7,275 nt of DNA from Chloroflexota bacterium. Its GTDB lineage: Bacteria; Chloroflexota; Anaerolineae; DTPP01. This document shows, piece by piece, positions 1,354 to 7,274 of the stretch. Each line of letters opens with the position of its first letter. Position 1 is the first letter of the stretch. A program made the translations under genes and the position numbers. The stretch covers positions 1-7,275 of the forward strand of contig JAAYZY010000274.1 of NCBI GenBank assembly GCA_012514615.1. The letters are read 5' to 3'. Below the pieces are notes generated by a model. It was not told the origin of the DNA, ran no database searches, and saw only the letters and a list, made by a program, of their open reading frames with translations.

Positions 1354-2199
1354 ATGCCCCCCGTCCGCATAGTCACCGACAGCGCCTGCGACCTGCCCCC
1401 AGAAGAGTCGGCGCGGCTGGGGATTACGGTGGTGCCGTTGGTGGTGGTCTTCGGCACCGACCAACACGCTGACCTCAGCCTTACGCCCGAGGAGTTCTGG
1501 GCCAAGGCGGCCCAGGCCCACCCCCAGACCTCGCAACCGTCTCCCGGCAGTTTCGAGAAGGCGTTCCGAAGCTTGGTGGAAGCTGGCCACGACGTTCTCT
1601 GCATCACCATCACGGGCAAGCACAGCGGCACCTACAACTCGGCCCGCACCGCTGCAGCCGCCTTCCCCGAGCAGCGCGTCGCCGTGTGGGACTCCCTCTC
1701 CCTCTCCTGGGGCCAGGGCTTTCAGGTGCGCAAGGCCGCCCAGATGGCCCACGCTGGAGCGAGCATCTCCGACATCCTCCAGCGCCTGCCGGACATCCAG
1801 CAGCGGGTGCGAGTCTTCATCCTGTTGGACACCATGGACTTCATTGAGCGGGGCGGGCGCGCCGCAGCGCTGATGCCTGTGGTGAAGCGGGTGGCCAAGG
1901 CGTTCCGCATCAAGCCGATCCTCACCATGGTGGAAGGCGAGCTCAGCCTCTGCTCGGCCGTGCGCTCGACGGCCAAGGGGGTGCAGAAGCTGCTGGCCGA
2001 AGCGACGGCTCTGCCGGTGGAGATGGCCAGCGTGCTGCACGTACGCAACGCCCAGGAGGCCCAGCATCTGGCCCAGGCGTTGGCCGAGGTCGCCGGCCTG
2101 CCCCTGGCGGAAGTGGGCATCGCCGAGACCGGCGCCGCCCTCTCCACCCATGGCGGGCCAGGCGTAGTGGCCTTCGCCGCACTCACCCGGGCGGCATGA
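1354..2199 (+). CDS. DegV family fatty-acid-binding protein
   Basis: A complete 281-residue protein, the usual size for DegV/FakB-like proteins. The family binds a single fatty acid between two alpha/beta domains; FakB members present it to the kinase FakA for phosphorylation. Visible hallmarks in order: N-terminal VTDSACDLP (7-15), the TSQPSP loop (59-64), ITGKHSGTYNSA (86-97; the Ser-Gly-Thr turn usually lies by the lipid carboxylate), DFIERGGRAA (162-171) matching the family's LxxGGR element, IKPIL (186-190), and the C-terminal STHGGPGVVA loop (264-273). His90 stands where many relatives have a hydrophobic residue, which may be neutral. The ATG is supported by AGGAGG six bases upstream. 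No FakA-like kinase gene is in the window. The end overlaps the convergent helicase reading frame by 17 bases. Family assignment is firm; a fatty-acid role is from family knowledge. Confidence 0.95.
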   Translation: MPPVRIVTDSACDLPPEESARLGITVVPLVVVFGTDQHADLSLTPEEFWAKAAQAHPQTSQPSPGSFEKAFRSLVEAGHDVLCITITGKHSGTYNSARTAAAAFPEQRVAVWDSLSLSWGQGFQVRKAAQMAHAGASISDILQRLPDIQQRVRVFILLDTMDFIERGGRAAALMPVVKRVAKAFRIKPILTMVEGELSLCSAVRSTAKGVQKLLAEATALPVEMASVLHVRNAQEAQHLAQALAEVAGLPLAEVGIAETGAALSTHGGPGVVAFAALTRAA

Positions 2200-2698
2200 C
2201 CGCGCCCCCGGGTCGGCCCAGATCGCTCGGCCGGGGGACGCTGTTCCACAACAGGAGCTCAAGCAGCCGCGCCGCGCCCGCTTTGTCCAGCGGGTCATTG
2301 TTGTTCCCGCACTTGGGGCTCTGCACGCAGGAAGGGCAGCCGTTGCGGCAGGGGCAGGACCGGATGAGCTCCAGCGCGGCCTGCCAGAGCTCCGGCAACT
2401 GAGCGAAGCCTCGCTCGGCAATGCCCACGCCGCCAGGGTAGGCGTCGTAGATGAAGACCTGGCCCTGTTCCGTGTCGGGGTGCCGAGCGGTGGAAAGGCC
2501 GCCGATGTCGTTGCGGTCGCACAGGGCAAAGAGCGGCAGCAGGCCGATGCAGGCGTGCTCTGTGGCATGGAGCGCCCCGGCGGGGTCGCGGCCCTCGGCC
2601 GCCAACGCGCCCAGCAGCTCCGCGGGCACGTCGAACCACAGGGCCGCCGTCTCGAAGGTCTGCGGGGGCAGGTCCAGCCACTCTTGGCTCAACACCAC
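2183..2698 (-). CDS. C-terminal DUF1998 / zinc-binding part of a split DEAH helicase
   Basis: This open frame encodes up to 171 residues from a GTG at 2698, but it lies in the same frame as the helicase core upstream and is clearly its missing C-terminus. It starts with LDLPPQTFETAALWF (8-22), continues with the conserved HATEHA (44-49) and DAYPGGVGIAERGF (85-98), and ends with a cysteine cluster (Cys115, 117, 121, 124, 130) followed by GNNN and PLDK. This is the DUF1998/MZB region, which binds zinc in MrfA-type helicases. As an independent gene its start is poor: GAGG directly abuts the GTG codons at 2698 and 2695, leaving no normal spacing, and TTG at 2692 is only three bases further. Translation would need reinitiation or readthrough of two upstream TAG codons. 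It may be a pseudogene fragment. It stops in TGA, overlapping the convergent degV by 17 bases. Domain identity is firm; independent expression is doubtful. Confidence 0.8.
   Translation of the reverse strand: MVLSQEWLDLPPQTFETAALWFDVPAELLGALAAEGRDPAGALHATEHACIGLLPLFALCDRNDIGGLSTARHPDTEQGQVFIYDAYPGGVGIAERGFAQLPELWQAALELIRSCPCRNGCPSCVQSPKCGNNNDPLDKAGAARLLELLLWNSVPRPSDLGRPGGAVMPPG
2185..2213. terminator. Possible bidirectional hairpin between convergent genes
   Basis: ACCCGGG at 2185-2191 is the exact inverse complement of CCCGGGT at 2207-2213, with a 15-base spacer that can add a few G-C pairs. The structure covers the stop codon of degV and begins inside the last codons of the opposing helicase frame, where a shared terminator would be expected. 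There is no T-run on either side, so a classical intrinsic terminator is not demonstrated; in GC-rich DNA a seven-base arm can also occur by chance. Confidence 0.3.
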
Positions 2699-2707
2699 CT
2701 CAGTGTA

Positions 2708-2737
2708 CTACTGGACGCGCTTGTAACCCAGTACCTA
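2708..2737 (-). other. Two in-frame amber codons splitting the helicase
   Basis: On the minus strand TAG occurs at 2737-2735 and again at 2710-2708, eight codons apart and in the same frame as both flanking helicase parts. Between them the frame reads VLGYKRVQ, and after the second stop YTEVVLSQEWLDLPP. The GYKR element is what I expect at this point in DUF1998 helicases, so the frame looks intact and only the two codons are wrong. Each could arise by one base change from a sense codon (CAG Gln, or TGG Trp). Both stops sit in a near-repeat: AGTAGGTAC and AGTAGTAC on the coding strand. Confidence 0.88.
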
Positions 2738-4561
2738 CTCCACCACGCGGATGCTCCCCAAGTAGGCGGTCGTGGCCGGGTAGCCGGTGTGCCGCAGCGA
2801 GCGCAGGATGCGCACGTCGTTCAGTTGCCGCGGCTGGGTGTGGTAATCCACCTCTGCTGGCCGCAGGATGGCCACCCCTTGGTCCAGGTCCAGGCTCTGC
2901 ACCAGGAACGTCTCCCCCTGGTGCAGGTAGACGGCCCCAGGGTGCACGCGGTAGGCCGCCGTGCTGGCCTCGATCTCCTCCAGGGTGCGGTAGCCGTCAG
3001 CCTCATTGAGCAGGGCAAAGCGAGAGCCGCTGGCCGAACGCAGGTTGACCCGCTGGGCCGGGTAGCCAAGCCCCCCGAAGTGCCAGCGGCCCAGGCGGTA
3101 GTCCAGCGTTCCGTCGCCCTCCAGGTGCAGCACCGCGTCCACAAAGCCGGGGCCAAAGAGCACCTCATCATCCACCGGGTGGTCGGGTTGCGCCGTGCCC
3201 AGCGGAAGCTCGTGGGCCGCACGGGGCAGGTGCTGCCGCAGCACATAGGGGTTGTCGGGCTTGATGAGGGCTTCTTCGTGGGGCCGCCCGAACAGCTCCT
3301 GAGGGTGGCGCATGAAGTACTGATCCAGCGGGTTGTCGGCGCCGATGAGGATGCCCAGGCCGTTGCGCCGGCCCCGGCCGGCGCGGCCCACCCGCTGCCA
3401 GAGGCTGGAGATGCTGCCAGGGTAGCCCACCAGCACGGCTGCATCCAGCGATCCCACGTCGATGCCCAGCTCCAGGGCGCTGGTGGCCGTGACCCCCAGC
3501 AGGTGGCCGCGGAAAAGCTCTTGCTCGATGGCCCGGCGGTCCTCCGGGCGGTAGCCGGCGCGGTAGGCCTTGATCCGCCCGGCCAGGGATGGCTCTTGCC
3601 GAGCCAGCGCCTCCCGGGTATAGCGCAGCACCAGTTCCGCCACCCGCCGGCTGCGGGTGAAGACGATGGAGCGCAAGCCGCCTTGCACCAGGGCCCGCAG
3701 CAGCAGTGTGGCCTCGGTGTTGGCGCTGCGGCGGGCCGACTGGGCCTCATCCACGAAGGGCGGGTTCCACAGGACGAAGTGTCGCGTCCCCTGGGGCGCG
3801 CCGTCGTCGTCTACCACCCGCACCGTCTGGCCAGTGAGCCGCTGGGCATGCTCGCCGGGGTTGGCGATGGTGGCCGAGCAGAGCACAAACAGCGGCGCAG
3901 CTCCGTAGAAACGGCACAGCCGCCAGAGCCGCCGCAGCACGCAGGCCACCTGGGACCCGAAGATGCCGCGGTAGACATGGGCCTCATCCAGCACCACGAA
4001 ACGCAGATGGGCCAGGAACTCTGCCCAGAGGGCGTGGTTGGGCAGAATGCCCAGGCTGAGCATATCGGGGTTGGTCAGCAGGATTCGCCCCCCCTTGCGC
4101 AGGCGAGTGCGGGCCGCTTGGGGTGTGTCGCCGTCGTAGGTGCCCACAAGGAACGGCCCCAGCGCCTCGGTGAGCCCGTGCAGGGCCCGCATCTGATCTT
4201 GCGCCAAGGCCTTGGTGGGGAAGAGGTACAGCGCCCGCGCCCGCCGATCGCTCAACAGCGCCTCCAGGGTGGGCACAGTGTAGGTCAGCGTCTTGCCGCT
4301 GGCCGTGGAGGTGGCTAGGATGACGTGCTCCCCTTCCCGCACGGCGTTGATCGCCTGGGCCTGGTGAGAGTAGAACCCGCGCACACCGCTGGCCTGCAGC
4401 GTTTCGTCCAGCGAGCGCGGCAAGGGGCGGCTCAGTCGACCGTAGCGGGCCGGCCGCCCACCCAAACGCTGCACGTGGACCATCTGGCCTTGTACCCAGG
4501 GCTGGCGGCGCAGCCCCTGCAGGAACTCCCCCGGGTTCACCGCGTCGTCGCTCCCCCTCAC
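2735..4561 (-). CDS. DEAH-box superfamily 2 helicase core (MrfA/YprA/Hrq1-like), cut short by TAG
   Basis: An ATP-dependent DNA helicase. B. subtilis MrfA of this group works in repair of mitomycin-type DNA damage; that role here is inferred only from family. Residue numbers count from the furthest in-frame GTG at 4588. Visible motifs: Q-motif-like FYSHQAQAI (72-80), Walker A ATSTASGKT (92-100), motif Ia PTKALAQDQ (124-132), LTNPDML (171-177), Walker B DEAH (201-204), motif III SATI (238-241), IVFTRSRR (308-315), motif V TSALELGIDVG (369-379) and motif VI QRVGRAGR (398-405). A DUF1998-side beta-rich region follows to residue 617. I prefer GTG at 4561 (608 aa) because GGGAGGGG lies six bases upstream; GTG at 4588 has only a weak CAGG. 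The frame ends in TAG, and the rest of the family's C-terminus continues in the same frame after a second TAG. All ATPase motifs look intact, so the core could still fold, but the zinc domain is missing from this piece. The LPRAAHE segment near 454-460 has Arg where relatives usually have Cys. Confidence 0.9.
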   Translation of the reverse strand: MRGSDDAVNPGEFLQGLRRQPWVQGQMVHVQRLGGRPARYGRLSRPLPRSLDETLQASGVRGFYSHQAQAINAVREGEHVILATSTASGKTLTYTVPTLEALLSDRRARALYLFPTKALAQDQMRALHGLTEALGPFLVGTYDGDTPQAARTRLRKGGRILLTNPDMLSLGILPNHALWAEFLAHLRFVVLDEAHVYRGIFGSQVACVLRRLWRLCRFYGAAPLFVLCSATIANPGEHAQRLTGQTVRVVDDDGAPQGTRHFVLWNPPFVDEAQSARRSANTEATLLLRALVQGGLRSIVFTRSRRVAELVLRYTREALARQEPSLAGRIKAYRAGYRPEDRRAIEQELFRGHLLGVTATSALELGIDVGSLDAAVLVGYPGSISSLWQRVGRAGRGRRNGLGILIGADNPLDQYFMRHPQELFGRPHEEALIKPDNPYVLRQHLPRAAHELPLGTAQPDHPVDDEVLFGPGFVDAVLHLEGDGTLDYRLGRWHFGGLGYPAQRVNLRSASGSRFALLNEADGYRTLEEIEASTAAYRVHPGAVYLHQGETFLVQSLDLDQGVAILRPAEVDYHTQPRQLNDVRILRSLRHTGYPATTAYLGSIRVVE

Positions 4562-4567
4562 CCAGCG

Positions 4568-4575
4568 CCCCTCCC
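4568..4575 (-). promoter_or_regulatory. Ribosome-binding site supporting the GTG start at 4561
   Basis: GGGAGGGG on the minus strand lies six bases before GTG 4561. It is clearly better than anything before the longer GTG at 4588, so it decides the helicase start. The 69 bases between 4588 and the glycosyltransferase stop show no clear promoter or terminator. Confidence 0.6.
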
Positions 4576-4657
4576 ATGGGGGACGCACCCTGGGCGTCCA
4601 AGGCGCTCAGGCAGCGGGCCCTGCTGCGCCACGGCCGCACACAGGCCAGTCCGGGCG

Positions 4658-6178
4658 CTAACGGGCATCGCTCGCCCCCTCCACACGCTGGAAGATCCCC
4701 AGCGCCGCGGCGTCGGGCGCCGGGGCGTAGCCCTGCCGAAAGCGCCGGTCAGCCAGCAGCAGGTCGGTGCCGGTCCAGTTGGTGCGCATCGAGCCGCTCT
4801 GGAGGGCGCCGGCGATGATGTTCACCTGCACCCAGTCTGGGCGCTGTGCCAGGATGTAGTCCACGTCCCAGCGGCCGAAGCCGTTGCCTCGGGCTAGCAA
4901 GCCGCCGGGGAACTGCGGCGGCCGACGGGCGATGTGCGCGTCGGTCAGGCCCACCATGTCCACCACCCGGGTCTCCAGCGGCAGCATGTAAGCGATCTGG
5001 CCGGCGTCCGTGACCGCCACCACCTGGCCCGGCTGGACGGCCTCTAGCAGGTAGGCCGCCTGGGGGTTGGCCGGCGGGGCCCACGGCCCGGCCCCTACCC
5101 CCTGCACGAAGCGCAGATCCAACAGGTTGAAGCTGAAGAGGGCCGCTGCGCCCATGAGCAGGCAGGCCACCCAGCCCCTGGCTGCCCCACCCAGCCTCTC
5201 AGCCAAGGTCGCCGCCCCGGCCACGGCCAGGGCCACCCACACCGGCAGCACATGCACCCCCACCCGCCCCAGGGGCATCCAGTCGCCGCCGCCCATCACC
5301 GCCGCCAGGAGATAAGCGCCAACCCACAGGGACGCCAGGGGCGCTCCAGACGCTGCCCGCCCTCCCCCAAACCACAACGCCGAGGCCAGGCCCACGGTGA
5401 AGAGCACCCCCCCGCCCTGCGTCAGGAGCTGCCCCAGAGTGAACAGACCTTCCAGCAAGGGGCGCGCCTGGAGGCCCGCGGTCTTGACAACCACGGTGTT
5501 GGGCAGGGGGTAGCCGTAGGTGACCCAGCGCCAAGCCAGATGCGTCAGGTAGGGCACAGCGAAAGTCGCCGCCCAGCAGGCCAGGTCGGACCCCAACCGC
5601 CGGCGCCAGCACCGCCAGGCCAGGGCCAAGGCGAAGAAAAGCACGCCCTCGGGGCGAGTGAGGGCGGCCAAGGCCAAGAGCGCTGCAGACCAGGGCCGGC
5701 CGACCTGCCGTTCTTCCACCAGGTACCGCCAGAGGCCCAGGGCCGCCAGGGCGGCGAACAGCGGCGTCTCCAGCCCGCTCACGGCCCACGCGGTGAACGA
5801 CGGTTGGCTGGCCAGCAGCAGCGGGGTTAGCCCGGCCCACCACCCAGGCAGACCCCCCGCGGCCAGCAAGCGTCGGCTGACCCCCCAGGCGGCCGCCAGA
5901 GCCGCCCCGCCGCAGGCCACCCCCAGCAGTTTGGCCCCCAGCACCAGGTCCAGCGGGAGCCGGGCCAGCAGCGCGAGCAGCGCCAACCAGAGGAAGTTGG
6001 AGTACCCCTCCACCCGCTCCCCTACGTTGTAGACCCAGCCGTGGCCAGCGGCGAACTGCCGCACATAGCGCAGGCCGATGTAGACATCATCCACCAAGAA
6101 GCCGTGCAGGAGGTAGACGCCGCCCAGGAAGACAGCCAAGCCCAGCCCCAGCAGCGCCGCCTCCCCGCGGTCTCTCAG
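4658..6178 (-). CDS. Polytopic GT-C-type membrane glycosyltransferase
   Basis: About 506 residues if started at CTG 6178. The first half is a string of hydrophobic helices (I count roughly nine or ten, the first at about residues 8-28). The last 140 or so residues look soluble. After helix 1 comes [23 protein letters not shown] with an Asp pair (30-31), the acidic loop expected of GT-C enzymes, then [11 protein letters not shown] (54-64). Other conserved points are SGLETPLF (134-141), TRPEG (174-178), YGYPLPNT (221-228), GGGDWMP (296-302) and a late GLTDAHIAR. This pattern resembles the AftB/LphB-like group, which uses polyprenyl-phosphate-linked sugars; donor and acceptor are unknown. The frame is open back to 6478, but residues encoded before 6178 are Arg-rich shadow of the GT4 gene, whose EX7E motif occupies that DNA. 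The only start with a spaced ribosome-binding site is CTG 6178; TTG 6139 is an alternative that would shorten helix 1. It stops in TAG. Confidence 0.88.
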
Positions 6179-7274
6179 CCAACGCCTCTTGGTACACCGC
6201 CAGCGTCTGCTTGGCCGCCCGCTCCCAGGAATACTCCCCCGCTCGGGCCAGCCCGGCCTCCCGCAAGGCGCGTCGCCGCTCGTGGGCCCGCAGCAGTTCG
6301 CTGATCCCCTCGGCCATGGCCGAGAGGTCCCGCGGGTCGTAGTAGGTAGCCGCCGGGCCGGCCAGCTCTCGCAGCGCCGGCGTGTCCGAGCAGGCAACCG
6401 GCACACCGCAAGCCAGCGCCTCCAGCACGGGCAGGCCAAACCCTTCGTACAGCGACGGGAAGACGAACGCCTCCGCACCGGCCACCAAGGCCGGCAGGGC
6501 CTGGCCCGGCACGCTGCTCAGCCAGCGCACCCGGCCGCCCAAGCCCAGCTGCTCCGCCGTCTGACGCGCCTGGGGATAGCGCGGGTCTTCGTGGCCCGCC
6601 ACCACCAGGGGCGGCGGCGTGCCAGACCAACCTGCCACCACCTGAGCCCAAGCCTGGATCAGCCGAGTCAAGTTCTTGTGCGGCTTGTTCGTGCCCAAGT
6701 ACAGCACGTACGGCTGCGGCAGCCCCAGGCGCTCCAGCACCGGCCAGACCTGCACCTGCGGCAAGGGCCGGAAGGCGGGATCGGCCGCACCGGGGATGAC
6801 GCGCAAGCGCGCCGCCTTCACCTGGTAGTACCGGCGCAGGTCCGCCGCCGTCGTCTCCGAGGGAACGATGATCCGCTGGGAGCTGAGCAAGGCCAAGCGC
6901 GTGGCCGCTTCGAACGCCCAGCGCGCCGCCACCGAGGGGAGCCCCTTGGGGTGCAGGCGTGAGATGACATCGTAGATCGTCACCACCGATGGGCACGGCG
7001 TCAGGTAGGGCCGCACGTAGTAGGGCGCGTGGAAGAGGTCCAGCCGCAGTCGCCGCATCATCATGGGCACGTCCACCTGCCCCTGCCACGACCGCAGCGG
7101 CACCAGGCAGGGTACCCAGGCGATCCGCGTCTGCCGCTGCAGCCCTGACAGATCGAAGGAGATGTTGCGCGCCGTGGGATCGTGCAGCAGCGCCAGCGAG
7201 AGGTCGGGCTCCACGCGGATCAGGGCGTGCAGCAGGTTCACGGTGTAGCGCCCGATGCCCGGGTAACGGTCCTG
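6087..7274 (-). CDS. GT4 family glycosyltransferase (5' partial)
   Basis: The frame is open to the right edge, and 395 residues are visible. The GTG at 7241 is probably not the start, because the codons before it read [13 protein letters not shown], the glycine-rich N-terminal element of GT4 enzymes; some 10-25 residues are missing. The fold is GT-B. Visible points, numbered from the window edge: HAPYYVRP (82-89), [12 protein letters not shown] (98-109), VPSET (137-141), [10 protein letters not shown] (159-168), [10 protein letters not shown] (192-201) opening the C-terminal nucleotide-sugar domain, [10 protein letters not shown] (225-234), and EGFGLPVLE with the EX7E pair Glu277/Glu285. It probably transfers a sugar from a nucleotide donor at the cytoplasmic membrane face; the sugar is unknown. 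The last 28 residues, Gly/Ala/Arg-rich, lie where the DNA also encodes the next gene, and look like a non-conserved tail. It ends in TGA about 92 bases inside the membrane glycosyltransferase gene, suggesting an operon. Confidence 0.93.
6185..6190 (-). promoter_or_regulatory. Ribosome-binding site for the membrane glycosyltransferase, inside the GT4 gene
   Basis: AAGAGG on the minus strand is six bases before CTG 6178. It lies within the coding region of the upstream GT4 gene, which fits translational coupling. It is the main reason for choosing an atypical CTG start, because no ATG, GTG or TTG occurs in frame close by except TTG 6139, which lacks such a site. Confidence 0.45.

Follow-up and report, generated by a model that had tools for sequence, protein, structure and literature searches.

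An interrupted helicase frame

The locus studied here raises the question of how a helicase frame can carry two in-frame TAG codons and still look like a working gene in the rest of its length. The frame (4588..2183, minus strand) lies in the window, by which we mean the whole 7275-base stretch of DNA analysed, itself a complete contig. It is read as ...RVVE-TAG-VLGYKRVQ-TAG-YTEVVLSQEW..., with the stops at 2737-2735 and 2710-2708 and a final TGA at 2185-2183. A sequence-only reading had placed both TAGs in one frame with no indel, and had offered as options a very recent pseudogene, a consensus error, a genuine split into two polypeptides and decoding of UAG. Its description was confirmed: both pieces match the TIGR03817 profile in the same frame, and frame 4588..2183 contains no further internal stop, frameshift or indel. 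As for the options, we consider it very likely that the frame is disrupted and that no recoding is involved, real inactivation and consensus error being taken jointly, and we place the recent inactivation of the gene by nonsense changes just short of an even chance.

The genes of the contig are arranged as follows:

ending at 1237, plus strand: radical-SAM protein
1354-2199, plus strand: DegV-family protein
4540-2183, minus strand: helicase
ending at 4658, minus strand: membrane glycosyltransferase-like protein
frame ending at 6087, minus strand: GT4 glycosyltransferase

No tRNA gene was found anywhere in the 7275 bases, and no promoter-like sites were found in 2150-4800. The named closest relatives of the helicase, among the matches listed, are from Anaerolineae and other Chloroflexota, and the helicase belongs to a Chloroflexota/Anaerolineae-like organism. 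A phage origin was rejected, viral contigs having given only one helicase match (39%).

The helicase is a repair helicase of the MrfA/YprA type (TIGR03817). Alignment to relatives points to the GTG at 4540 as its likely start, and the stretch GAGGGGGAG lies upstream of it. The DEAD/H core and the C-terminal helicase domain expected of this family are present, and the MZB/DUF1998 zinc domain is encoded in the DNA (91 bits), with its cysteines kept in the alignment. The features of the frame are:

2738..4540, minus strand: helicase portion preceding the first stop, 601 codons long when counted from the GTG at 4540 (Pfam DEAD, Helicase_C, WHD_HRQ1)
3863..4369, minus strand: DEAD/DEAH domain PF00270, residues 74-242 of the frame starting at 4588
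3374..3688, minus strand: Helicase_C domain PF00271, residues 301-405 of the frame starting at 4588
3032..3265, minus strand: HRQ1-type winged helix PF22982, residues 442-519 of the frame starting at 4588
2735..2737, minus strand: first in-frame TAG, codon 618, at a Gln column
2711..2734, minus strand: VLGYKRVQ, the eight sense codons separating the stops
2708..2710, minus strand: second in-frame TAG, codon 627, at a Gln column
2183..2707, minus strand: stranded C-terminal part of the helicase (TIGR03817)
2324..2560, minus strand: MZB/DUF1998 zinc-binding domain PF09369, residues 50-128 of the frame 2186-2707

The upstream piece covers the RecA-like domains, the winged helix and part of what, following the domain description in PMC12458937, would be the OB/connector region. 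It matches profile positions 1-575 with 643.8 bits, and the downstream piece matches positions 589-739 with 208.8 bits; scored separately, both fall below the TIGR03817 cut-off (874.1 bits), and no continuous polypeptide exceeds it. The domain order and the MZB domain are shared with MrfA/YprA of Bacillus subtilis (PDB 6ZNP, 6ZNQ, 6ZNS; TIGR03817), and P0002, a relative of the window helicase, matched 6ZNP both by sequence (E 3.5e-164) and, as a structure model, by fold (E 6.5e-71, 35% identity). Unlike in MrfA, the MZB domain of the window sits behind two in-frame stops. The MrfA residues at the two Gln columns are Leu and Met (aligned by eye).

Conserved glutamine columns at both stops

The sequence-only reading had proposed aligning homologues at the two codons. 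Among the 119 homologues compared (the best 120 of 7998 proteins, minus the window's own), the first-stop column held Gln in 116 sequences and Arg in the other 3; in the second-stop column the counts were 111 Gln, 5 His and 3 Arg. In a wider set the first column was less conserved (Gln in 26/79, Thr in 30/79), and the second held Gln in 62/78. At the codon level, 30 distinct loci with identity of at least 58% spanned both sites after removal of duplicates, and CAG was found at the first site in 27 of them and at the second in 23. Because both stops stand on conserved Gln columns, both TAGs likely derive from CAG by C-to-T changes on the coding strand.

Such an origin fits suppression, yet in a GC-rich gene it is also the commonest way for a stop to arise. 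Codons one C-to-T or G-to-A change away from a stop number 57 (30 CAG, 12 TGG, 10 CAA and 5 CGA, with both stop sites entered as CAG), and since CAG provides 30 of these 57 one-transition routes, the Gln match tells only weakly. More unusual than the Gln match is the spacing of the stops, which is closer than chance favours: only 41 of the 1596 pairs of stop-prone codons (2.6%) are nine codons or fewer apart. This close spacing hints at a shared cause, which could be a cluster of mutations made in one event, or a single faulty molecule or read. Third-position GC in the 20-codon stretches that hold the stops was 16-18/20, the gene minimum being 14.

TAG as a terminator on the contig

Two of the five contig genes end in TAG where their homologues end. 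The radical-SAM gene does so at the column where three loci terminate (L112 with TGA, L113 with TAA, L114 with TGA), and three more (L117-L119) end within two residues of it; overall six of the eight loci agree, L115 and L116 being those that did not align to the gene end. The membrane glycosyltransferase likewise stops with TAG at the C-terminus of its homologues (by eye). A count of internal TAGs in other genes had been suggested in the sequence-only reading. The other four contig genes have none, and contain only their two TAG terminators, despite 84 CAG and 16 CAA codons in the five gene stretches counted. Since two of these four genes terminate with TAG and none of the four has it internally, UAG is a stop here, and genome-wide recoding of UAG was rejected. 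The use of TAG as a terminator in neighbouring genes provides a quick test for recoding. The case also carries a caution, as an in-frame TAG at a conserved Gln is the expected look of ordinary nonsense lesions in GC-rich metagenome contigs.

Little decay in the rest of the frame

The sequence-only reading had found no other decay, which held within the helicase frame but not for the contig, where a second lesion lies near 6177. At near-invariant columns the window departed in 6 of 245 cases with the first stop included, and in 5 of 244 without it. Six or fewer such departures were seen in 107 of the best 119 homologues, so that the window stands high among the homologues but within their range. 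Private residues amounted to 18/603 upstream and 3/153 downstream of the stops, whereas the other alignment rows together showed ~1.1% in both parts (rows with few aligned residues were omitted). The window helicase resembles a somewhat isolated lineage, with no downstream excess of private residues, and these counts leave an old pseudogene unsupported.

Downstream of the stops, the helicase was 0.745-0.784 identical to its six closest relatives, which were 0.843-0.935 identical to one another; for residues 15-410 the corresponding values were 0.728-0.756 and 0.812-0.952. In a ranking by the downstream-to-upstream identity ratio it came 17th lowest of 120, and the downstream shortfall may be a mild sign of relaxation. 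When neutral mutation was simulated until two stops had arisen, runs took a median of 49-62 mutations, and the missense changes falling at near-invariant columns had a median of 9-13; five or fewer of these changes occurred in 19-31% of runs and three or fewer in 10-18%. The few departures of the window are compatible with drift.

A possible recent inactivation of the helicase

The recent-pseudogene option survives: the stops are at conserved Gln, relatives have CAG there, and TAG is a terminator on the contig. Under the standard code the product would be ~601 residues long and would break off inside a long beta strand, leaving the zinc-binding MZB/DUF1998 domain unattached. In the structure model of P0002 (mean pLDDT 83.7), the two glutamines are Q602 and Q611; Q602 is predicted to lie within a long strand (591-610) that is preceded by strand 566-586, and Q611 to come right after strand 591-610. 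The two coding-strand C-to-T changes, perhaps made in one clustered event, would be so recent that the remaining frame still looks intact, and the shortened helicase would probably be non-functional. Loss of the helicase was perhaps tolerated, since a second member of the family is often present in related genomes. Such a second helicase, with 43-51% identity, was found in seven of the nine Chloroflexota relatives' genomes probed (G001-G007; only partial in G003), and another, G008, has a 38% helicase fragment near a contig start.

Single nonsense codons also occur in other members of the family. In the genome_contigs set, 1 of the 80 loci (L041) is interrupted within the gene body, by a TGA at the codon aligned to window residue 735 (Trp in the window), and two stops were found in none of the 80. 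Among the Anaerolineae matches listed, two (L120 and L121) have a TAG inside; that of L121 falls at window residue 356 (Gln in the window) and that of L120 in a poorly aligned stretch. The window is like the ordinary nonsense lesions of pseudogenes and metagenome contigs, with a stop one transition from CAG, L041 and L121 being similar; unlike them, it has two stops very close together with little other decay. This lack of clear decay argues against recent inactivation, as does the fact that its departures at near-invariant columns stay within the range of the homologues. So do the ~2.6% probability of two independent stops within nine codons and the number of mutations that drift alone would need for the second stop.

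A possible consensus or library error

That the TAGs are false base calls, arising for example from cytosine damage on a low-coverage molecule, and that the real gene is intact, has a substantial probability, although clearly below even. The helicase cluster of the window has one member, on a single metagenome contig. No near-identical copy from the same population was found in the best 120 of 7998 scored proteins (top match 76%), nor was one found for the C-terminal piece, whose top match besides itself was 69% (best 120 of 3684 scored). The two changes, both of the C-to-T type, on one strand and 27 bases apart, are consistent with damage to a single molecule. The absence of a downstream excess of private residues also favours an error. 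Errors dense enough to produce two stops should, however, also bring many missense changes, and few were seen.

Further evidence comes from the junction between the two glycosyltransferase genes. In the relatives of the membrane glycosyltransferase (P0241-P0247) the first residue is Met, at a position occupied in the window by Leu (CTG; by eye), and there is no ATG, GTG or TTG in the 34 codons preceding that CTG. The GT4 frame has 395 aa, and its alignment ends at residue 361-366 (~6177) in the five loci, out of 12, that have a GT4 match; over 6087-6215 (minus strand) the frame overruns into the neighbouring membrane glycosyltransferase gene. The overrun and the missing start codon would both be accounted for if the junction differed in length by a single base, and relatives with an intact junction exist. 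The lesion suggests error or real decay. It lowers the trust to be placed in the contig consensus, and with the single contig it keeps alive the consensus-error option of the sequence-only reading, but the length difference could be real.

A proposed suppression or readthrough of UAG

In a third explanation, UAG would be decoded as glutamine, through a suppressor tRNA or inefficient readthrough, and some full-length helicase would be made. We regard this as improbable. As both stops are TAG and both stand on conserved Gln columns, suppression is slightly more alive than it would be at a random position, and private residues are not in excess downstream of the stops. UAG-to-Gln codes (code 15 phages and some eukaryotes) likewise have TAG where relatives have Gln; unlike in those codes, TAG also terminates genes on the window contig, at the ends of relatives, and no other gene contains it internally. 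The RNA folds around the stops were ordinary (z-scores 0.92, -0.25 and 0.22), with no stable structure as for programmed readthrough. Of the UAG decoding proposed from the letters, the genome-wide form failed at the two terminators, and the folds gave no supporting signal for local readthrough or a weak suppressor. Moreover, two leaky stops in series would yield very little product, and the share of CAG among the routes to a stop makes the Gln match a weak argument.

PMC8629427 points in the same direction. It describes the bacterial reassignments known before its screen as concerning UGA, and warns that in-frame stops of pseudogenes, which come about through transitions in certain codons, can mislead. 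The number of bacterial stop codons that its screen marked as candidates was 290. The specific case of an inefficient amber-suppressor tRNA(Gln), with UAG tolerated at Gln positions in a few genes, most genes still ending at it and the double stop keeping the helicase low, appears highly improbable. If UAG did serve both as Gln and as a stop in a free-living Chloroflexota lineage, such ambiguity would be unusual for a bacterial code; the evidence does not support it.

A proposed split into two polypeptides

The idea that the core helicase and an MZB protein assemble as two polypeptides, like DrmA/DrmB of DISARM, is hardly credible. According to PMC12458937 and PMC9142583, DISARM encodes the helicase and the OB-CON-DUF1998 module separately, as the window pieces would be, and short MZB proteins occur elsewhere, some on long contigs. 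In DISARM, however, the module is a complete gene adjacent to the helicase. PMC12458937 describes a beta-sheet connector joining the OB fold and DUF1998, and the strand pair 566-586/591-610 of P0002 may be this connector; the first stop would fall inside strand 591-610 of the model and would not leave OB-CON-DUF1998 whole. No clear ribosome-binding site was seen on inspection ahead of the GTG at 2698, and no DISARM genes were detected on the contig by Pfam and NCBIfam.

A query with the C-terminal part was matched 122 times in the 294 Dehalococcoidia genomes, 121 of which had a match. Counted by hand, 104 of the 122 belong to frames no shorter than 700 aa; of the other 18, six or more begin within 750 bases of a contig start. 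Four of the 122 matches hold an internal stop, some perhaps a natural gene end. The Anaerolineae search gave a match in 302 of 396 genomes. The same split was not found to be conserved in the Dehalococcoidia, the 80 genome_contigs loci or the Anaerolineae matches listed. With the first stop predicted to cut a long beta strand and relatives mostly carrying the gene unsplit, a functional split is unlikely, and this option of the sequence-only reading is disfavoured.

Short MZB-only proteins encoded on long contigs were seen among the best 120 of 3684 (P0141, P0148, P0156, P0168, P0192 and P0224). Several short MZB-only proteins start near the same region, and are perhaps the products of broken or mis-started helicase genes.
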